Shown: one piece after another, positions 5,108-18,079 of the stretch
Position numbering within the stretch: the stretch's first letter is position 1
Layout of the letters: every line of letters starts with the position of its first letter
The notes under the pieces: generated by a model
What the model saw: the letters and a program-made list of their open reading frames with translations, nothing else
What the model was told of the DNA's origin: nothing
The model's database searches: none
IMG/VR virus record: IMGVR_UViG_3300017773_000049
Coordinates: 1 to 35,948 of that record
Source of the DNA: a virus
Reading direction: 5' to 3' (one strand)
Length of the DNA: 35,948 bases
Translations under genes and position numbers: made by a program

Positions 5108-5322
5108 ATGGCTATTACATTACCCGCGGGGTTTAACATAACAAACACAGAACCAGTAGATGCAAGAATTACTGTAGCTGATCAAGCAGCTCGTCTAGCA
5201 TTTAGTTCAGCTAATGTTTATAATGGTTTAGTAGTATTCCAAAGAGATACAAATGAACTTTATGTATTAAAAGATACAGGTTCTTGGAATTTAAACTCTG
5301 GTTGGAATTTAGTAGGAAGTGG
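5108..5322 (+). repeat. Direct repeat, copy A (N-terminal docking module)
   Basis: These bases are nearly identical to 6457-6671 (constant offset 1349). They encode the first 72 residues of two adjacent fibre proteins. Confidence 0.85.
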
Positions 5323-6442
5323 TAGTGGTGGAGGAACTGATGTTACTTTTGATTCTACAGGCTCATCAGTCGTTAATAACATTATAATAAAAGATTTTGA
5401 TGCAGATGTTGCTGTAACATTTAGTGGAGGTGATTTAACTTTTATTTTTGGTACTCCTCAAGCACCAAATCCAGCAATAGCAAATTTAGGAGATGCTTTC
5501 TCAACAGATAGATTTAACAAAGTATTAGATACTTATGGTGTTACAGGAACATTTAATATAGGAGGATATATTTTACAAACCGCTTCTATATTTGAAACAA
5601 CAGCAGGGAGTGAAGGTTTAGTAGCAGGGCCAGTTTATACTGGAACTACTTTAGCAGTATCTCCGGATCCAAACACTTCAGGTTCTAGATCATACAGATT
5701 AGATATTACTTCAAGTAACCCAGCAGATAACAGTATAGATACACAATCTACAACTTTAACTTTAACTTTAAATAAATCTCTACCAGCTGTACCTACACAA
5801 AATGCTACTGCAACAGTTCAATTATCAGCAGCTTCAAATCAAATAGAAGAAGGTGCTACCGGAAGTATTGCATTCACAGCAGATACAGGTTCAGCAAATG
5901 GGTGGGTATATTTAGCTAGTTCATTAAGTACTAACTTCTCAAGTCCAATTACAATAACAAATTCAGATGTAGGAGGATATAGTATTTCTGCTTCTGCAAA
6001 TTATACATCATCAGGTGTTGGAGGAACAGATAATGACCCAGTATTATCAGAAACTAGAACATCAACTCCAACTATATTTACAAGAATTAGAAGTTTGAGA
6101 TATGGTGCTAGTACGGATGCTGATTTAGACATTTCAGAATTAAGAGATATTGATGCTTGGGATACTGCTTTAGGTGGAACTGTTGGAAGTATAGAAAAAG
6201 GTACTACCAACCCAGTAGGACAAAGTTTTCAATTTACATGGACTGGAGACAAATACCATTATATTATTTATGACAGTGCAAGAGCAAACCTATCAGATAT
6301 AAAAGAAACAGATACTAACTTTAGTGTACTCTCTTCATTTGGTGGAGGACCTTACGCAACTGTAGGAAGTTACAAAATATACAGAACAACAGATGTACAA
6401 GCAGGATATGCAGGAACAACAATTAAATATTCATTAAGTTAA
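5108..6442 (+). CDS. Fibre/tip protein, modular paralogue 2 (mosaic)
   Basis: The protein has 444 residues. Its N-terminal 72 residues (MAITLPAGFNITN..., ending at the G-W-N-L-V-G-S-G linker) are almost identical to the start of the next gene at 6457. The remainder is almost the same as the C-terminal module of the gene at 3708. The protein is therefore a mosaic: head like its downstream neighbour, tip like its upstream neighbour. The N-terminal block with V-D-A-R-I-T-V-A-D-Q-A-A-R and V-V-F-Q-R-D-T-N-E-L-Y-V-L also appears, diverged, at 12931, so it is probably a common docking domain. It follows the previous stop by 11 bases with an A/T-only leader and no promoter-like element, so it is co-transcribed. 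Confidence 0.85.
   Translation: MAITLPAGFNITNTEPVDARITVADQAARLAFSSANVYNGLVVFQRDTNELYVLKDTGSWNLNSGWNLVGSGSGGGTDVTFDSTGSSVVNNIIIKDFDADVAVTFSGGDLTFIFGTPQAPNPAIANLGDAFSTDRFNKVLDTYGVTGTFNIGGYILQTASIFETTAGSEGLVAGPVYTGTTLAVSPDPNTSGSRSYRLDITSSNPADNSIDTQSTTLTLTLNKSLPAVPTQNATATVQLSAASNQIEEGATGSIAFTADTGSANGWVYLASSLSTNFSSPITITNSDVGGYSISASANYTSSGVGGTDNDPVLSETRTSTPTIFTRIRSLRYGASTDADLDISELRDIDAWDTALGGTVGSIEKGTTNPVGQSFQFTWTGDKYHYIIYDSARANLSDIKETDTNFSVLSSFGGGPYATVGSYKIYRTTDVQAGYAGTTIKYSLS
5390..6442 (+). repeat. Long direct repeat, copy B (C-terminal fibre module)
   Basis: Partner of the copy at 4044-5096. The differences visible are mainly third-position and conservative changes, so both copies seem to be kept under selection for protein function. 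Confidence 0.85.
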
Positions 6443-6456
6443 AAGAATTTTAAAAG

Positions 6457-6671
6457 ATGGCTATTACTTTACCCGCAGGGTTTAACATAACAAATAAAGA
6501 ACCAGTAGATGCAAGAATTACTGTAGCTGATCAAGCAGCTCGTCTAGCATTTAGTTCGGCTAACGTGTATAATGGTCTAGTAGTATTCCAAAGAGATACA
6601 AATGAACTTTATGTTCTTAATGATACAGGTTCTTGGAATTTAAATTCAGGTTGGCAATTAGTAGGAAGTGG
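6457..6671 (+). repeat. Direct repeat, copy B (N-terminal docking module)
   Basis: Partner of 5108-5322. After this point the two genes become unrelated, which marks a module boundary. Confidence 0.85.
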
Positions 6672-9600
6672 AGGGACTGTAAATACTGGATCTTTACTTG
6701 AAACAGGTTCTGTTAGTTTAAACACTTTAACATTCACTAAAGGAGATGGTAGTACATTTGCCTTAACTGTAGATACAGGTTCAGGTGGAGGAAGTGGTGT
6801 AGGATTCCCATTCACAGGATCTGCTTTAATAACTGGAAGTTTAGGAGTAACAGGATCAATAAGTGTATCCGGATCAGTTATTAACCAATTAACTTCTTCA
6901 TATGCTATGACTGCTTCACTTGCAGATGTAGCAACTACATCAGTAACAGCTTCTAATATAGTATTTGATGGTGATAGAAAAATTTCTAATGTTAGTATGC
7001 CTGTGGGTGTATTTGATGTTAATTATGGTGGAACTGATTTAAAACAATTTGTTGAAAATGTATTTTTTGTAAATTCAGCTCCAGTAGTACAAGATACTGC
7101 AAGTATTAGTATTGGAGAATATGAATCAATAGGTACTAATGTTTTTGTAGTTACTGCTATTGATGCTGAAGCACAAACATTAACATTTATTACCCAAAGT
7201 TCTTATACTGATAATTATTTTGGTATTAATAGTAGTACAGGTCAAGTTACAGTAAATACTAAAACTGTAGCCTCTATGAATACCGTTACTACAGGTAGTG
7301 AAAATAAAGCTCCATTTCCTGTAAGAGTTACTGATACTGGAGGATTATTTGGAGAAAGAACATATTATATTAGAGTAATACCTAATACAGCACCTATTTG
7401 GAGTTTAACTAGTGGTGGAACAGAATTAACACCTAATTATACAGGTTCACTTACAGAAGCTTCTTCAACTGGAGCTAATAAGTACCAATTTTGGTTTAGA
7501 GATACTGAATCAGATACTATAACAATAAACACTGGATCGTTAAATATAGACTTTACAAATTATTTTTCATTAAATATCCAATCTAATTATGTAGGTTTAG
7601 ATCAAGATTCTGCTTTAGATTTTGATACAGTTCCTTCAATGTCATTTGTATTAACAGCTAGTGATCAACACTTTGAAAGTGGAGATGATCCAAGTGCTAT
7701 AAAATATTTACCTGTTAAAATTGAAGTACAAGATAATGCTCATCCAACTATAGGAGTTCAAAGTTTTTCAATAAATGAAAAATCAAATAATGGAGCAACA
7801 GTTGGTACTATTACTAATGTAAGTGATGGAGAAGGAAATAATGTTCAAATACCAACATTTACTCTTGTAAGTGCACATTTAGCATCTGCACCTGGAACTA
7901 ATTTAACACAATCCTTAGTAGCAGGAGGTCAAAATTCATTACAAAACCCAACTGCAGATCCATTTGAAGTAGCTAATCAAAATACTAGAGTTATTACAAG
8001 AAAAAGTGGTGTATTTTTAAACTCGGATGTAGCAGATACTTATACTTATAGAGCATTTGCAACAGATCAATATCAACCATCACCATCAGCTAGTGCTATA
8101 ATGACAATTACAGTAGCTGATCATGCTGCTTCTACTGTAAATGGAAATACACCTTGGTATGTAATAGAATCTGCAAGATCAGGAGAATATGCTACTAATG
8201 ATTCAGATGGTATTCCAGAAAATTCAGGAGAATATGCAGATTTAACCTCAGCTCAATCTCAAAGATATACTATAGTTTCAACTAGTAACTTTATAGAAGG
8301 CACAGTTGCAACGGGTTCTGCAACAGATTTAAGATTAGCAATTGATTTAAGTGGTTCGGGTACTACTTCGGGAGCTACTATAAATGTTCAAGTAACATCT
8401 TCTCAGGATGACTTTGATACTACAATTCAAAAACAAGATTATACAATATCAGTAGTTGCTATGCAACCACCAGTATTATCACCTTCAGATCAATCATCTA
8501 ATTTAAATACTAATGGTGCTAGACCAAGTAATAACTTAGTATTAGTTAGTATTACAGATCCACAAAGTTATGGTATTAATCATTCAACATGGACTTTTAC
8601 ACCAAATGCAGGACAAGCTTTAGAAGCAGTTCAAAATGGTGGAGGAGATAGTTACTATGTACGTCCAACTGCTAACTTAGCAGCTGGAACTTATGGATAC
8701 ACAGCTAGTATTTCTAATGATAGAGGATTTACAGCAGGTGAATTAAAAGATGAATTTACAATAGCTCAAGCAGGAGTAGGTACATTAACAGGAGATACTA
8801 CTTCATATATTATAGAATCTTCAACAGGATCAGGAGCTCAAATAAAAGAAGATAGTAATGGATATACAGGGAATCAGGCAGATTTAGATGTTAATTATGG
8901 GGGTACAGGATATAACGGAGCAGCAGTAACAGATTTTACTTCATCTAATGCCTTTATAGCAGTAACAAGTACTGGTTTATTATCTGTAACAGGAGATGTT
9001 AGTGGTTCTTATGCTTTTGGAGATCCTGCTATTACATCAAATATTAATTGGCAAGATCAATATGGTAATGTAGGAGGCCCAACAGCAATAACAGTTAATA
9101 TTGCTGAAAATGAAGCACCCACAGCTACATTTACTAATAATACATCCAATTTTAATACAGATAATGCTGTTTTAAATGCTGTTATGATTAATATTACTAA
9201 CATAACTGATTCTCCAAGTGATGAACCTTACACATTAACTTTAAGTGGAACTGATGCTGCTAGTTTTACCATAGATTCCCCAGTAACTACTCCAGGAGGA
9301 TCTTCAACAGTTAAAGCCGCAGGACCATTAGCAGCAGCTACTTATAATTTTACAGTTAGAATTAAAGATTACTATGGTTCATTTACAGATTATAGTAGAA
9401 GTATTACTGTAGACCAATCTGCGGATTATGGAGATATTTATTTTTATCATACCAACTGGGCTGTAACACCATATTATGGAGCAAGTGGTTGGTCTGGTAT
9501 AAACACTTATAATGCTACTACTCCTTTTGAAGTAACATCATTTAGAGCTGAAGCTTTACCTTTAGGAGAAGTATATAGAGATGGTTTAGCTACAGGTAGT

Positions 9601-10041
9601 GGTAATGATTCTATTTTCTTATTTACTTCAGGAAATGATTATTATATGAATGAAGTAGGTATAATTTCATCATCAGCTACATATTCTTCAGTTGAATCTT
9701 CTTTTAATAATGGTGGAGATTTTACAGTGCCTGCTATAGATGGATTAACAACTCAAAGATATTTCTTCTTTATACCTTCAGGATCTTCACTTACAGGTAT
9801 ACCATATGAAGGTATGGTTGATTCTTTAAATGGAGCAGGATCTGCTAATAAAGGGGTATTATATTTAAACACTGATGGTGGTGGTTGGTATCCAAAAACC
9901 TCAGTAAAAATAAACTTAATAGATTTTGGATCAGCTCAACATGGATATCAAAAATGGTATGTGGTAGGAACTAATGCAGGAGAAACTGCGGGTTCTATGA
10001 AATGGAGAATAGTCCCCGAAAATGGTACAGCACCAACATAA
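6457..10041 (+). CDS. Large fibre protein with cadherin/Ig-like repeats
   Basis: The protein has 1194 residues. Residues 1-72 are the docking module shared with the gene at 5108. Residues about 73-110 hold a T-F-T-K-G-D-G-S-T-F repeat and a Gly/Ser linker. From about residue 200 it is a string of beta-rich domains of roughly 100 residues. They have cadherin/Ig-like features: N-(S/T)-A-P-(V/I) openings, acidic turns such as T-A-I-D-A-E-A-Q and F-R-D-T-E-S-D, V-R-V-T-D-T-G-G, and V-K-I-E-V-Q-D-N-A. Later domains carry W-Y-V-I-E-S/S-Y-I-I-E-S motifs. The last about 180 residues, from D-I-Y-F-Y-H-T-N-W, look like a separate globular tip. No enzymatic motif was seen. A long flexible adhesin or receptor-binding fibre is the likely role. 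Confidence 0.85.
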   Translation: MAITLPAGFNITNKEPVDARITVADQAARLAFSSANVYNGLVVFQRDTNELYVLNDTGSWNLNSGWQLVGSGGTVNTGSLLETGSVSLNTLTFTKGDGSTFALTVDTGSGGGSGVGFPFTGSALITGSLGVTGSISVSGSVINQLTSSYAMTASLADVATTSVTASNIVFDGDRKISNVSMPVGVFDVNYGGTDLKQFVENVFFVNSAPVVQDTASISIGEYESIGTNVFVVTAIDAEAQTLTFITQSSYTDNYFGINSSTGQVTVNTKTVASMNTVTTGSENKAPFPVRVTDTGGLFGERTYYIRVIPNTAPIWSLTSGGTELTPNYTGSLTEASSTGANKYQFWFRDTESDTITINTGSLNIDFTNYFSLNIQSNYVGLDQDSALDFDTVPSMSFVLTASDQHFESGDDPSAIKYLPVKIEVQDNAHPTIGVQSFSINEKSNNGATVGTITNVSDGEGNNVQIPTFTLVSAHLASAPGTNLTQSLVAGGQNSLQNPTADPFEVANQNTRVITRKSGVFLNSDVADTYTYRAFATDQYQPSPSASAIMTITVADHAASTVNGNTPWYVIESARSGEYATNDSDGIPENSGEYADLTSAQSQRYTIVSTSNFIEGTVATGSATDLRLAIDLSGSGTTSGATINVQVTSSQDDFDTTIQKQDYTISVVAMQPPVLSPSDQSSNLNTNGARPSNNLVLVSITDPQSYGINHSTWTFTPNAGQALEAVQNGGGDSYYVRPTANLAAGTYGYTASISNDRGFTAGELKDEFTIAQAGVGTLTGDTTSYIIESSTGSGAQIKEDSNGYTGNQADLDVNYGGTGYNGAAVTDFTSSNAFIAVTSTGLLSVTGDVSGSYAFGDPAITSNINWQDQYGNVGGPTAITVNIAENEAPTATFTNNTSNFNTDNAVLNAVMINITNITDSPSDEPYTLTLSGTDAASFTIDSPVTTPGGSSTVKAAGPLAAATYNFTVRIKDYYGSFTDYSRSITVDQSADYGDIYFYHTNWAVTPYYGASGWSGINTYNATTPFEVTSFRAEALPLGEVYRDGLATGSGNDSIFLFTSGNDYYMNEVGIISSSATYSSVESSFNNGGDFTVPAIDGLTTQRYFFFIPSGSSLTGIPYEGMVDSLNGAGSANKGVLYLNTDGGGWYPKTSVKINLIDFGSAQHGYQKWYVVGTNAGETAGSMKWRIVPENGTAPT

Positions 10042-13576: not shown

Positions 13577-15430
13577 ATGGCAGAATGGAAAAAGGTGGTG
13601 TTAGACGGGGCAGCAGCAAGTTTAGCATCATTAACATTAACAACAGATCTCTCGGTAGCCAATGGTGGTACTGGAGCAAGTACACACACCGCAGGTAATG
13701 TATTAATTGGTGCTGGTGCAAGTGCAATTACATCAACAGCAATTGGTATTGCAAATGATAACATCGTTGAAATAGACGATGCTGATGCAGCTAGTGGCGA
13801 CTTTGCAAGATTTACCGCAAATGGTTTAGAAGGTCGTAGCGCATCAGAAACATTAAGTGACATTGGAGCAGCAGCAGATGGAGCAAACTCAGACATTACT
13901 TCACTTTCAGGATTAACTACAGCTTTATCAGCAGCACAAGGTGGTACTGGTAAAAATGGAACAGATTTATCTAGTGCAACTGAAGGACAGGTATTAACAG
14001 TAAATGCCGCAGGAAATGGATATGATTTTACTACTTTAACAGGTGATATTTCACAAGTATCAGCAGGAACAGGTTTATCTGGTGGTGGTGCATCCGGTAA
14101 TGTAACACTTAATGTAGATTATTTAGGTGCAGATAATATTATACAGGCAGCGCCTAATAATGATATTACTCCTGTTTTAGGTGATGAAATCCTATTAAAT
14201 GATGCTGATACAGGTAATGTAGAACATGTAACATTAACTAAAATCAAAACTTTATTTGGTACTGGTATTGGTAGTATTACAGTAACAGCAGGTGATGGTT
14301 TATCCGGTGGTGGTACATTAACAGCTGATGGAACTCTTTCTCTTGCAGTTGATTTAAATGAATTAGGAGCTGAAACTTCTATTGCAGATGCTGATCAAAT
14401 AGCAATGGTAGATGCTACTGATAATGGTTCACAAAAGATTACATTTGCTAACTTTATGACTAGTGGTGCTACTAAATTAGCAGGTACAGTCACATCAACA
14501 GGTTTAGCAGCATCTTCAGGTGTATTATCTATTGATATAGCTAACATGACTGCTTTAGGTGGTGCTTCAGTTGCTCAAGTGGATGAATTCGCGTTTAGCG
14601 ATGCAGGTACTCTTAAAAAAGTTACTTTCTCTAACTTAGAAGATTCAATCTTTGCTAATATTACAGCAGCAGGTGGTGATGTTACTGCAGCAGCAGGTGG
14701 TGAATTAACAATCGGATCTCAAGTGGTTGAAAATACTATGCTTAATTCTAATATTATTTCAGGCCAATCAACTGTTACTCCAGTAGGAGCTGATTTCTTA
14801 TTATTTGGAGATACTGATGATTCAAATAGATTAAGAAAAACTTCTATTGAAACACTAATAGGTTTAGCACCAGCAGGTACAGTTACTTCTGTAGCAGGTG
14901 GTACAGGTCTTACTTCTACAGGTGGTACAACTCCATCACTTTCAGTAGATGCAGCACAAACAGGTATTACATCTATGACAGGTGTTAATACTATAAATGC
15001 TGGTGGTAGTGCTTTAGCATTAGGTAGTTCAGATAGTAATGTTACAGTTCAAGGTAACTTAATAGTAAATGGAACAGCTTCATTTGAAGATGCAGAAACA
15101 TTAAGAGTTAAAGATCCAATGATCATATTAAGATCAGGTTCATCAGGAGCAGGAGATGGTGGTTTCATCGTAGAACAAAGTGGTGGTGAAACAGGTCAAT
15201 TCTTTGGATATGATGCTACAGCAGGAAGTTCAGGTGGTAGATTTGGTGTAGTAGCATCAGTTGCTGAAGACGCTACATCAGTTACTATATCAAACTTTAT
15301 GCCAACAGTTACACAAGGCGCCTTAGGTGGAGCCCCAGGTGGTGCACCTCTTTATGGAGGAAATACAGGATATGGTAACTTTGCAGTTGATACTACAAAT
15401 CATGATTTATATGTTTATATAAGTTCTTAA
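13577..15430 (+). CDS. Tail fibre/virion surface protein, Gly-Ala-rich repeats
   Basis: The protein has 617 residues. It begins MAEWKKVVLDGAAASLASLT, a short block shared in pattern with the gene at 16097 (MPNWKKVLLNG). Repeats typical of phage fibre shafts follow: two V-A-N-G-G-T-G/A-A-Q-G-G-T-G motifs, D-I-G-A-A-A-D-G-A-N-S-D-I-T-S-L, then several G-(T/D)-G-L-S-G-G-G-x-L-T blocks. The last about 110 residues (E-T-L-R-V-K-D-P-M-I-I-L, then G-G-F-I-V-E-Q-S-G-G, ending D-L-Y-V-Y-I-S-S) look like a globular end domain. The gene is visibly richer in GGT and GCA/GCT codons than its neighbours, which may reflect the Gly/Ala content or separate ancestry. A strong terminator follows the stop. Confidence 0.85.
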   Translation: MAEWKKVVLDGAAASLASLTLTTDLSVANGGTGASTHTAGNVLIGAGASAITSTAIGIANDNIVEIDDADAASGDFARFTANGLEGRSASETLSDIGAAADGANSDITSLSGLTTALSAAQGGTGKNGTDLSSATEGQVLTVNAAGNGYDFTTLTGDISQVSAGTGLSGGGASGNVTLNVDYLGADNIIQAAPNNDITPVLGDEILLNDADTGNVEHVTLTKIKTLFGTGIGSITVTAGDGLSGGGTLTADGTLSLAVDLNELGAETSIADADQIAMVDATDNGSQKITFANFMTSGATKLAGTVTSTGLAASSGVLSIDIANMTALGGASVAQVDEFAFSDAGTLKKVTFSNLEDSIFANITAAGGDVTAAAGGELTIGSQVVENTMLNSNIISGQSTVTPVGADFLLFGDTDDSNRLRKTSIETLIGLAPAGTVTSVAGGTGLTSTGGTTPSLSVDAAQTGITSMTGVNTINAGGSALALGSSDSNVTVQGNLIVNGTASFEDAETLRVKDPMIILRSGSSGAGDGGFIVEQSGGETGQFFGYDATAGSSGGRFGVVASVAEDATSVTISNFMPTVTQGALGGAPGGAPLYGGNTGYGNFAVDTTNHDLYVYISS

Positions 15431-15476
15431 TTAGAATAAAACATGAAATTAAAAGGTTAATGAAAAACAATAATAT

Positions 15477-15509
15477 AAGGGCTGTCTTTAAAAAAGTCAG
15501 CCCTTTTTT
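15477..15509 (+). terminator. Intrinsic terminator after the 617-residue fibre gene
   Basis: AAGGGCTG (15477-15484) pairs with CAGCCCTT (15498-15505). The stem continues inward, after one T-T mismatch, with CTTT/AAAG. The T-run covers 15504-15509. It sits 47 bases after the fibre stop codon. Confidence 0.85.
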
Positions 15510-15522
15510 AAAATCTATCGTT

Positions 15523-15744
15523 ATGGGATTTAAAGGAAATATGAATATTAAAAAAACAAAACCAGAATTTGAAGCTGTGAAAAAAGATTTAAAAAACGCT
15601 AAAAGTAGTTTGGATCAGGATGAAATAGGTATTATATTAAATTTGATAAAAGAAAATAGCTTTAAAGGTAAAGATTTAGAAATTATATACAATTTAGTTA
15701 TAAAATTACAAGATCAATATCTTAGCTTAGAAAAAGAAAATTAA
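15523..15744 (+). CDS. Small hypothetical protein
   Basis: The frame is open from an ATG at 15460, but bases 15477-15509 form the terminator of the preceding gene. I therefore take the ATG at 15523 (M-G-F-K-G-N), giving 73 residues; 15541 is another option. The protein is highly charged and Lys-rich, predicted mostly helical, with no membrane segment. Residues 30-70 (D-E-I-G-I-I-L-N-L-I-K, then L-E-I-I-Y-N-L-V-I-K-L) look like two amphipathic helices. The next gene follows after nine bases. I do not recognise the family. Its position between two fibre genes suggests an assembly helper, but that is a guess. Confidence 0.6.
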   Translation: MGFKGNMNIKKTKPEFEAVKKDLKNAKSSLDQDEIGIILNLIKENSFKGKDLEIIYNLVIKLQDQYLSLEKEN

Positions 15745-15753
15745 ATTTAATAA

Positions 15754-15990
15754 ATGTTTCAATTTGATAAACCACAATATACATTAATAGATTTAAAGTA
15801 TATTTATGGAGCTTTAATGCAAATAGAGGTTAAAGGGGAAGATGTTAGGATATTATCTTTATTACAAGATAAAACTTTGGACCATATTAAACAATTAGAA
15901 TCTTTAAATGAAGTTAAAGAACCGGAATTAGAACTTCCAGAGTTAAAACTTCCTAAAATAAAACCAGGACCTCCTGGAAAAAAAGTATAA
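15754..15990 (+). CDS. Small hypothetical protein with Pro-rich tail
   Basis: The protein has 78 residues. The first about 50 residues are helical in pattern, with I-D-L-K-Y-I-Y-G-A-L-M-Q-I and V-R-I-L-S-L-L-Q-D-K-T. Then comes a repetitive acidic/Pro segment E-P-E-L-E-L-P-E-L-K-L-P and a final K-P-G-P-P-G-K-K-V. The spacing to the preceding small gene is nine bases, so the two are probably translated together. No family is recognised. The Pro-rich tail could be a flexible binding segment. The ATG at 15754 is preceded only by A/T bases. Confidence 0.65.
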   Translation: MFQFDKPQYTLIDLKYIYGALMQIEVKGEDVRILSLLQDKTLDHIKQLESLNEVKEPELELPELKLPKIKPGPPGKKV

Positions 15991-16016: not shown

Positions 16017-16027
16017 AATATTTATAA
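16017..16027 (+). promoter_or_regulatory. Late-promoter-like element, copy 4
   Basis: AATATTTATAA (core 16019-16026) lies 70 bases before the ATG at 16097. It is followed by a G/C-richer leader that can fold. Confidence 0.6.
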
Positions 16028-16038
16028 TAAATTAATTT

Positions 16039-16080
16039 GTTGGCCCGAAAGGGAAGTGGACTTAACTGGAAGTAGCCAAC
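16039..16080 (+). ncRNA. Structured 5' leader of a fibre gene (three-stem junction)
   Basis: Stem 1 is GTTGGC (16039-16044) with GCCAAC (16075-16080). Inside it are CC-GAAA-GG (16045-16052), a GNRA-type tetraloop hairpin extendable to CCC/GGG, and ACTT (16060-16063) with AAGT (16070-16073) around a six-base loop. The block is much richer in G and C than anything around it and lies between a promoter-like element and the start codon. It may be a cis-regulatory RNA. The fold was drawn by hand and its energy is not computed. Confidence 0.5.
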
Positions 16081-16096
16081 CGCAAACTAAAAAATT

Positions 16097-18079
16097 ATGC
16101 CAAATTGGAAAAAAGTATTATTAAATGGTAGTGATGGGAGTTTATCAACTCTTAGCCTTACTGGAATATCAGCACAAAACTCAGAAACAGACGTATTAAC
16201 TATAAATGGTTCAAATGTAGTTGGAACTAGAACGTTAGGTTCTAACGCATTTACATCAACAACTATTGGAACAACTACTAACAATTTAACAGTAGATAAT
16301 ACAACAATTCAGTTAAATTCAGGTACAACTTTTAATGGTAGTGGAGCAAGAACTATATCAGCAAAAACAGCAACAGTTTCTGAGACTGGAACTGGTTTAG
16401 CTACTGGAGCTCAAATTTTTAGCTTTGTAACAAATTTAGGATATGGTACAGGTACAGTAGATACTACAGGTACACCGGCAAACAACCAAATAGCAACTTT
16501 TACCGATGCTAATACAGTAGAAGGTACTTCTAACTTTACTTATGATTCTTCCACTAAAGAATTATTATTAGGACCATCAAGTGCAGGTAACACAGAATCC
16601 AATACTTTAAGAATTCAAGGTTATAATTCTTCAAACCCAGCTATGTTGAAACTAGGATGGAATAATTATGGAGGAGCAGCTTTTGAGAGTGGATTTGGTG
16701 GAAATTTAAATATATATAATTTCGGTACATCGGCAACTGCTGGAGGTAGAGTTATTATAGGCCAAGCAGGAGATACAGGTACAAACCAAACAAATTATTT
16801 ATGGATTCGAGGAGATAATGCAGATGATTCAACTCACATTTACATGGGAGCAAACTCTACTACATACTCTTCTGAAATTGGTATAGAAAGACAAGAAGGC
16901 ACAGGTGTAAACTACGAGAGTGATATTGCTTTAAGAGCAGCCGCAGGAACTAATGGACATAAATCAGAATATATATTTTCTAGAAAAGGAATGTTCCAAG
17001 CACAAGATGCCGGATTTACGGTAAGTGGGTCAGGTCAAGTATTTGTAAATATAACTGCCTCATTAATAAATCCTACTACAAAATTAAGTGGATTTGATCA
17101 AGCCTTAGTAGTTAATGGAACTATAACAGCTTCGGCATTTCAAGGCGATGGTTCACAATTAACAGGAGTAGGAACATTAACGGGCAATGGTACATCAACA
17201 AGAGTTCCTTTTTATAATGGAACTACATCATTTACAACAAATGCAGGATTTGTTTATACTGATGGAAGTAAAAGATTAGAATTAACGGGTGATGGAAGTA
17301 ATGCTCCATTAAGAATCTCTAATTTAACATCCCCAGATTCTTCTCAAGTAGTTTTAGTAGTAGATTCAGAAAATAATGATGATATACAAAAGAGAACATT
17401 AGGTTCAAACGCATTTACATCTACAACAATCCCAACCAACAATAACCAATTAACAAATGGTGCTGGTTACATAGATTCACTTTCAGGTGCAGTACTTACA
17501 ACTGGAGCTCAAACAGTAGCTGGTGTTAAAACATTTTCTAGTCAACCTGTTTTTAGTAGTGGTATTAACATTGGCAGTACCTCATATGCTTTATTTGTAT
17601 ACTCTAGTTTATTATATCTAACAGCTCCAGCAGGGGTAATTTCAATTGGTGGTGGACCCGGAGGTGCTAATAATGATTTATCAATACCTTATGGATCATT
17701 AGGTGTAGGTAATATATCTCCTTCTTCTACAAATGGTAGAATAGATGCTTCAAATGATGTAGTAGCATATTCTACCTCAGATAAAAAATTAAAAGAAAAT
17801 ATTAAACCAATTAAAAATGCTTTAAATAAAGTATCCCAAATTTCTGGTGTTGAATTTGATTGGAAAAAATTATCAAAGGAAGAAAAGAAAACAATTCATA
17901 GTAATAAAGGACATGATGTAGGAGTAATAGCTCAAGAAATTGAAGAAGTATTACCTGAAGTAGTTACTACAAGAGATAATAGTTATAAAGCTGTTAAATA
18001 TGAAAAGATAGTACCATTATTAATTGAAGCTATAAAAGAATTACAAGCAGAAGTACAAGAACTTAAAAATTCTAAATAA
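16097..18079 (+). CDS. Tail fibre with C-terminal S74 chaperone domain
   Basis: The protein has 660 residues. It begins MPNWKKVLLNG, like the gene at 13577. The shaft has repeats such as R-T-L-G-S-N-A-F-T-S-T-T-I (twice, about residues 35-47 and 435-447), N-N-Q-(I/L)-T segments and F-Q-G-D-G-S-Q-L-T-G-V-G. From S561-D562 the last 100 residues match the intramolecular chaperone (peptidase S74) domain: S-D-K-K-L-K-E-N-I, then V-E-F-D-W, G-H-D-V-G-V-I-A-Q-E-I-E, V-L-P-E-V-V and a terminal coiled coil. In the known family this domain helps the fibre trimerise and then cuts itself off just before the conserved Ser. The expected mature fibre therefore ends near residue 560. The stop overlaps the next start. 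Confidence 0.9.
   Translation: MPNWKKVLLNGSDGSLSTLSLTGISAQNSETDVLTINGSNVVGTRTLGSNAFTSTTIGTTTNNLTVDNTTIQLNSGTTFNGSGARTISAKTATVSETGTGLATGAQIFSFVTNLGYGTGTVDTTGTPANNQIATFTDANTVEGTSNFTYDSSTKELLLGPSSAGNTESNTLRIQGYNSSNPAMLKLGWNNYGGAAFESGFGGNLNIYNFGTSATAGGRVIIGQAGDTGTNQTNYLWIRGDNADDSTHIYMGANSTTYSSEIGIERQEGTGVNYESDIALRAAAGTNGHKSEYIFSRKGMFQAQDAGFTVSGSGQVFVNITASLINPTTKLSGFDQALVVNGTITASAFQGDGSQLTGVGTLTGNGTSTRVPFYNGTTSFTTNAGFVYTDGSKRLELTGDGSNAPLRISNLTSPDSSQVVLVVDSENNDDIQKRTLGSNAFTSTTIPTNNNQLTNGAGYIDSLSGAVLTTGAQTVAGVKTFSSQPVFSSGINIGSTSYALFVYSSLLYLTAPAGVISIGGGPGGANNDLSIPYGSLGVGNISPSSTNGRIDASNDVVAYSTSDKKLKENIKPIKNALNKVSQISGVEFDWKKLSKEEKKTIHSNKGHDVGVIAQEIEEVLPEVVTTRDNSYKAVKYEKIVPLLIEAIKELQAEVQELKNSK

Follow-up and report, generated by a model that had tools for sequence, protein, structure and literature searches.

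The window, by which we mean the entire 35,948-nucleotide stretch of IMG/VR record IMGVR_UViG_3300017773_000049, is a portion of the genome of a T4-like myovirus, with sheath, tube and fibre genes present and a G+C content of 31.6%. Ahead of one of the fibre genes, whose product we call the adhesin and which also matches tail fibre and baseplate PHROGs, lies a block (16039–16080) that reads GTTGGCCCGAAAGGGAAGTGGACTTAACTGGAAGTAGCCAAC, as an earlier note on this DNA had reported. The block is richer in G+C (0.42–0.50 in 50-base windows) than the window as a whole (0.316), and it is placed as had been described, after the string TATTTATA and before the ATG of the Peptidase_S74 fibre gene at 16097; the string GGAAGTAG was located at 16068–16075. 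The features of the locus are collected in Table 1.

Table 1. Features of the adhesin locus, in window coordinates
Feature	Position	Strand	Basis
Small-protein gene 1	15460..15744	+	Family upstream in 128/138 loci
Small-protein gene 2, divergent	15754..15990	+	Weak matches to upstream proteins of other loci
Late-promoter-like TATTTATA	16019..16026	+	Recurrence and spacing; promoter function putative
Whole structured RNA	16035..16088	+	Match to covariance model R1, 58.7 bits, E 2.9e-15
P1 5′ strand: UUUGU (36–40), bulged U41, GG (42–43)	16036..16043	+	Covariation, A2 columns 2–9
P2 hairpin CCC-GAAA-GGG, stem 16044–16046/16051–16053	16044..16053	+	98.8% of cells paired
J2/3 AAGU	16054..16057	+	Almost invariant, 96 members
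P3: inner GG (58–59)/CC (76–77), bulge A74–G75, outer ACUU (60–63)/AAGU (70–73)	16058..16077	+	Covariation
J3/1 AA	16078..16079	+	Almost invariant
P1 3′ strand CC-GCAAA, ribosome entry region of the fibre gene	16080..16086	+	
Adhesin gene, 660 aa, starts MPNWKK, C-terminal Peptidase_S74 chaperone domain	16097..18079	+	PF13884, E 2.6e-18

A second fibre-like gene of the window, at 13577–15430, has a MAEWKK start and a 127-base AT-rich 5′ gap that holds no copy of the RNA; the range of 2–23 bases that had been given for the 5′ gaps of the other units was therefore inexact. The related locus L200 also has a gene, with a MANWKK start, that lacks the RNA.

Fold of the leader and covariation

Compensatory change across aligned homologues establishes, at the level of comparative structure prediction, that the leader folds as a three-way junction. 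P1 is formed in the window by pairing of 16036–16040 and 16042–16043 with 16080–16081 and 16082–16086, and its sequence is UUUGU-U-GG/CC-GCAAA. Throughout the family P2 follows the plan CC(C)-loop-(G)GG and P3 combines a variable hairpin with inner GG/CC or AG/CU pairs, while the conserved junction string AAGU(G/A)GG lies at 16054–16059 in the window. The CC-GAAA-GG and ACTT/AAGT hairpins of the earlier note correspond to P2 and P3, and the covariation agrees with both of them. The GTTGGC/GCCAAC outer stem proposed alongside them was discarded, because many relatives cannot form its pairs (C44–G75 pairs in 5 of 85 and G39–C80 in 38 of 86) and the covarying P1 sits further out.

In the A2 alignment of 96 sequences, 95.8% of the cells pair, and two-sided changes are found in 14 of the 18 pairs, a count that does not represent independent events because the sequences are related. 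The covariation score was 0.450, against 0.184 for shuffled and 0.036–0.113 for slid versions. A MAFFT alignment of 59 sequences, which was not fitted to the model, gave 0.279, against 0.123 shuffled and 0.036–0.074 slid. The members of the latter set had been picked by a pattern that fixes the CCC/GGG, GG and CC strings, so that these columns could not vary; A2 was drawn mostly from loci picked by protein start, which frees the same columns, and is fitted to the model. The inner pair of P1 changes from G-C to A-U in the immuto group (GACC...CCAAUC), and the inner pair of P3 is G-C in 62 members and A-U in 24 (AAGUAGG...CUAACC in the A-U form). The third pair of P2 is C-G in 35 members and U-A in 30, with stem and loop of varying length, and the outer pairs of P3 show at least four pair types in A2. 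The presence of G.U pairs identifies the sense strand. The earlier note had named conservation and covariation in related phages as one of its tests, and on this point the support is very strong.

Its other test, fold energy relative to shuffled sequence, gave the opposite outcome, since the window leader folds no better than its shuffles (z −0.11 and −0.25). Such single-sequence comparisons were uninformative across the family as well (mean z −0.76). The predicted minimum-energy fold of the window leader (−10.5 kcal/mol) includes the GTTGGC/GCCAAC stem, compared with −8.3 kcal/mol predicted for the family fold; the family fold prevails in most members.

Three subtypes are visible among the leaders. 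The first, to which the window and most members belong, has a short P2 with GNAA-like loops; the second has a long P2 with loops of the UGGCAAC/UGGCGAC type; and the third is marked by AAGUAGG...AUCUAACC, often with a long P3 capped by CGGCAUAA. The UGGCAAC/UGGCGAC loop of P2 was observed in L357, L363, L365, L386, L402, L409, L416, L419 and similar leaders, and the CGGCAUAA loop of P3 in L364, L381, L383, L405 and similar leaders. The recurrent GGC(A/G)-containing loops, in P2 or in P3, may provide a common contact. A self-cleaving ribozyme was considered and rejected, as no hammerhead-type strings and no sign of cleavage were present.

Occurrence among phages

Among the loci of fibre and sheath relatives, three more MPNWKK genes have a clearly homologous leader (L078, L200 and L226). 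The pattern GGCCC..GGGAAGTGG..CCAACC matched at least 120 stretches in IMG/VR, and among the matches listed, an ATG that opens MP(N/S)WKK follows 87 of 93 distinct pattern matches; the remaining ones lie at contig ends, have GTG starts or are in odd frames. In all, homologous leaders precede MP(N/S)WKK adhesin genes in more than 120 viral contigs. A sample that does not depend on the RNA was assembled from loci taken solely by the nucleotide pattern of the MP(N/S)WKK start and then scanned with R1. The RNA was present in 78 of 81 new loci of this sample; L366, an exception, has its start just 4 bases from the contig edge. A single R1 match was obtained in each of another 40 records, which reach 186 kb in length, and 20 additional records held one copy each, one of them with an extra match at chance level (E 0.1).

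Among 84,980 species genomes of bacteria and archaea, a strict pattern had zero matches, a search that divergent copies would escape, and when 50,697 phage genomes were compared with a leader by blastn, nothing real was returned. A different pattern, CCGAAAGG...GGAAGTAGC, matched 71 contigs, none of them homologous, so that these strings alone occur by chance.

The best cultured matches to the sheath of the window are four Flavobacterium phage immuto records (55% identity). The immuto RNA is a single copy (MW353175.1:137892-137946, E 1.2e-14) that precedes the MPSWKK gene immuto26A_219, annotated as ‘putative tail fiber-like’; this copy was reached via the adhesin N-terminus and the covariance model only. 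As immuto is the nearest cultured relative with the RNA, a flavobacterial host is likely for the window phage, judging by this relationship. In Microcystis phage Mel-JY01 the sheath is related (48%) and the small protein has a weak match, and the sole match to the RNA is noise. The weak small-protein homologue of Mel-JY01 (PP395634.1:4601-4732) lies before a large gene annotated as FkbM methyltransferase, without the RNA.

A covarying structure, a fixed site in the 5′-UTR and a consistent downstream gene are the general marks of a structured cis-regulatory leader, and all of them were found here. The comparison thus gives good support to the view that the leader belongs to a new structured 5′-UTR RNA family in T4-like myoviruses related to immuto. 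The suggestion of a new phage cis-regulatory RNA in the earlier note is likewise supported by the covarying three-way junction, its fixed site before one gene and its lack of an Rfam match.

Promoter-like element and ribosome entry

Of 126 distinct leaders, 125 have 12–25 nt between the invariant CC of P1 and the ATG. In L237 and L267 the RNA lies 118 nt from the ATG, and the extra sequence of about 110 nt possibly represents an inserted short ORF or another start. On the 5′ side, 92 of 124 instances have a TATTTAT that ends 9–16 nt ahead of the leader's GGCC, compared with 0 of 121 in a control stretch at −120 to −80. With this spacing, transcription would in many cases begin at P1 or close to it. 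The string TATTTATA(A) is also found on the coding strand upstream of 19405, 19771, 21805, 22385, 23436 and 25765, which are structural genes that include sheath and tube. Read on the opposite strand, the string gives the T4 late element TATAAATA, and from its recurrence TATTTATA is likely to be a late-promoter motif.

A Shine-Dalgarno sequence is mostly missing from members that have the promoter-like element and mostly present in the others (TATTTAT versus Shine-Dalgarno, 76/10/27/13; Fisher p 4e-10, calculated on sequences that are related and not independent). The same RNA is kept in the 40 of 126 members that have no promoter-like element. P1 encloses at least three bases of the Shine-Dalgarno sequence in 19 of the 33 members having one, the other members of the sample having none, and the enclosed sequence is mostly AAGGAG against CUUUAU or ACUUAU. 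In one lineage the 3′ strand of P1 contains the Shine-Dalgarno sequence. The window leader has no recognisable Shine-Dalgarno sequence.

Small proteins encoded upstream

Directly 5′ of the RNA, 128 of 138 loci have one or two tandem copies of genes for a family of small proteins (members of 55–100 aa) with the core LTKxExEFLLxxIKxSTFxGExxExxYNxVxKLQxQY. Tandem pairs occur in immuto, where they are the genes immuto26A_217 and immuto26A_218 with products of 60–74 aa (MW353175.1 137396-137578 and 137652-137876), and in other records, and the product of 15754–15990 in the window is probably, by its sequence, a paralogue of the product of 15460–15744. The top match to the small protein adjoins the RNA in 13 of the 13 large RNA-bearing records searched, with one weak extra match. 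The small protein has no family in Pfam or PHROGs. AlphaFold predicts a confident C-terminal helical hairpin (pTM 0.45), which is a generic fold. Its linkage to the RNA makes the small protein a candidate RNA-binding regulator or fibre chaperone.

Relation to known RNAs and alternative explanations

In Rfam 15, no family matched over the leader at the gathering score in the window and 36 related loci, and permissive thresholds yielded noise alone over the leader, with no relevant weak match. Had the fold-energy and Rfam tests been relied on alone, the finding would have been discarded. The kinship to the glnA (RF01739) and Downstream-peptide (RF01704, Glutamine-II) families that the earlier note had raised was not borne out, as neither model recognises any of the members searched. 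RF01739 gave no leader match in the window record, immuto and 10 related records, and RF01704 gave none in 12 leader-bearing records, although as a positive control RF01739 finds the glutamine riboswitch of phage Melnitz (52.8 bits, E 5.1e-12), which is described in PMC9004378. R1, for its part, does not recognise the Melnitz element. What stands of the comparison is the topology, since both known families share with the leader a 5′-UTR P1-P2-P3 three-way junction, and they have a GGAAGU-type string after P2, where one subtype of the leader has GGAAGUAGG.

The Melnitz element, which reads ACGUUCAUCCCUUUGGGACGGAAGUAGCAUUAUGCGAAGGAACGC, has an unpaired GGAAGUA between P2 and P3, GAAG between P3 and P1 and a P1 of the CGUUC/GAACG type. 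The leader, in contrast, has AAGU in the first of these places, where the GGs on either side are paired (the first in P2, the second in P3), AA in place of GAAG, and a P1 of the AUUAU/AUAAU type; GGAAGUAG at 16068–16075 in the window is a hairpin loop plus one strand of P3, a role other than the one it has in the riboswitches. RF01739 and RF01704 are known from marine cyanobacteria and marine myophages, whereas the leader comes from aquatic phages with a cultured relative on a flavobacterium and precedes adhesin genes. Thus, the common plan, including GGAAGUAGG, is a resemblance only, and a highly divergent glutamine riboswitch seems to us very improbable, even though glutamine riboswitches occur in marine T4-like myophages (PMC9004378). 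The manA (RF01745) and wcaG motifs resemble the leader in being orphan structured 5′-UTR RNAs of T4-like aquatic phages (PMC2864571), but they precede metabolic or exopolysaccharide genes in cyanophages, and the leader has no Rfam match. A scan of pelagimyophages and cyanomyophages in 2020 with a scanner for known riboswitch classes found none (PMC7029224).

The main rival is a metabolite riboswitch of a new class, with a junction that would bind a small molecule, perhaps one that signals nitrogen or sugar in the infected host, and a P1 whose closure would stop adhesin translation. It accounts well for a compact junction with almost invariant unpaired AAGU and AA and for a P1 that extends to the ribosome entry site, and the glutamine riboswitches and orphan manA and wcaG RNAs of marine T4-like phages provide precedents. 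Known riboswitches usually occur before several genes and in hosts. The leader, however, is found once per genome and before one kind of gene, and its strict pattern was absent from the cellular genomes searched, where divergent host forms would escape it; we therefore regard a metabolite riboswitch as doubtful, with an appreciable chance of being right. Less probable still is a 5′-terminal element that stabilises the mRNA or recruits ribosomes and so boosts expression without any switch. The placement of TATTTAT, with transcripts starting at or near P1, and the usual lack of a Shine-Dalgarno sequence in promoter-bearing members are consistent with such an element. Yet a simple hairpin would suffice for that purpose, and neither the almost invariant junction bases nor the strict limit to one among many late genes is explained; nor does it fit the retention of the RNA in members without the promoter. 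An element acting as DNA, such as a recombination site or exchange point for fibre cassettes, would be expected to border a variable adhesin gene, as the block does. Compensatory changes that include one-strand G.U pairs and variable loops within conserved stems are signs of RNA, and the ATG distance is maintained and the family was recovered independently by gene and by RNA, so that a DNA element, or chance, is scarcely credible.

Proposed mechanism

The structure of the RNA, its place and its target lead us to infer a cis-acting three-way-junction leader that would control translation of the adhesin through P1, with a trans-acting factor setting the balance; we assign this reading a probability of roughly 55%. 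Late mRNAs would begin at or near P1. Closed, P1 would hide the landing site of the 30S subunit, and in one lineage the Shine-Dalgarno sequence itself would be paired; open, it would uncover that site. Which of the two states prevails would depend on a trans-acting factor recognising the conserved junction. The upstream 60-aa protein or proteins would be the first candidate effector, with a metabolite as the main competing proposal, and the single target per phage together with the absence of the strict pattern from the cellular genomes searched leads us to favour, somewhat, a protein made by the phage over a metabolite. Autogenous leaders, such as those of ribosomal proteins and the translational operators of phages, are similar in having one target per genome and a structure over the ribosome entry site. 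Their binding protein is also encoded next door, as it would be in the phage leader for the candidate, although the candidate is encoded upstream of the RNA and not downstream.

Some observations count against control of translation through P1. The predicted minimum-energy fold of the window leader differs from the family fold, and a recognisable Shine-Dalgarno sequence that could be masked is present in some members only, the window having none. The constant distance to the ATG would be equally expected of a stability or ribosome-recruiting element, and the adjacency of the small protein may be mere gene order of the fibre module. More tentatively, and at somewhat less than even odds, we propose a module in which a ligand or the adjacent 60-aa family would bind the new junction RNA and set the amount or timing of a single adhesin across a widespread clade of aquatic T4-like phages.

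What is described here is a well-supported new family of structured RNAs, consistently associated with only one target, the gene on which the phage's choice of cell depends. The reports of marine phage riboswitches consulted name metabolic or tmRNA genes as targets, and searches of the open-access literature found no account of such an RNA ahead of tail-fibre genes. We know of no receptor-binding protein described as regulated through an RNA leader; if the proposed control is true, this would be the first receptor-binding-protein gene with its own structured RNA switch. Because the cultured pair of immuto and Flavobacterium sp. LMO8 carries the RNA, the ligand, the protein partner and the effect are directly testable, and the linked small-protein family offers a ready hypothesis for the partner.

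Elsewhere in the window, the adjacent genes at 5108–6442 and 6457–10041 share their upstream sequence and have a near-identical N-terminus (MAITLPAGFNITN.EPVDARITVADQAARLAFSSANVYNGLVVFQ), and on this sequence identity we read them as a recent duplication.
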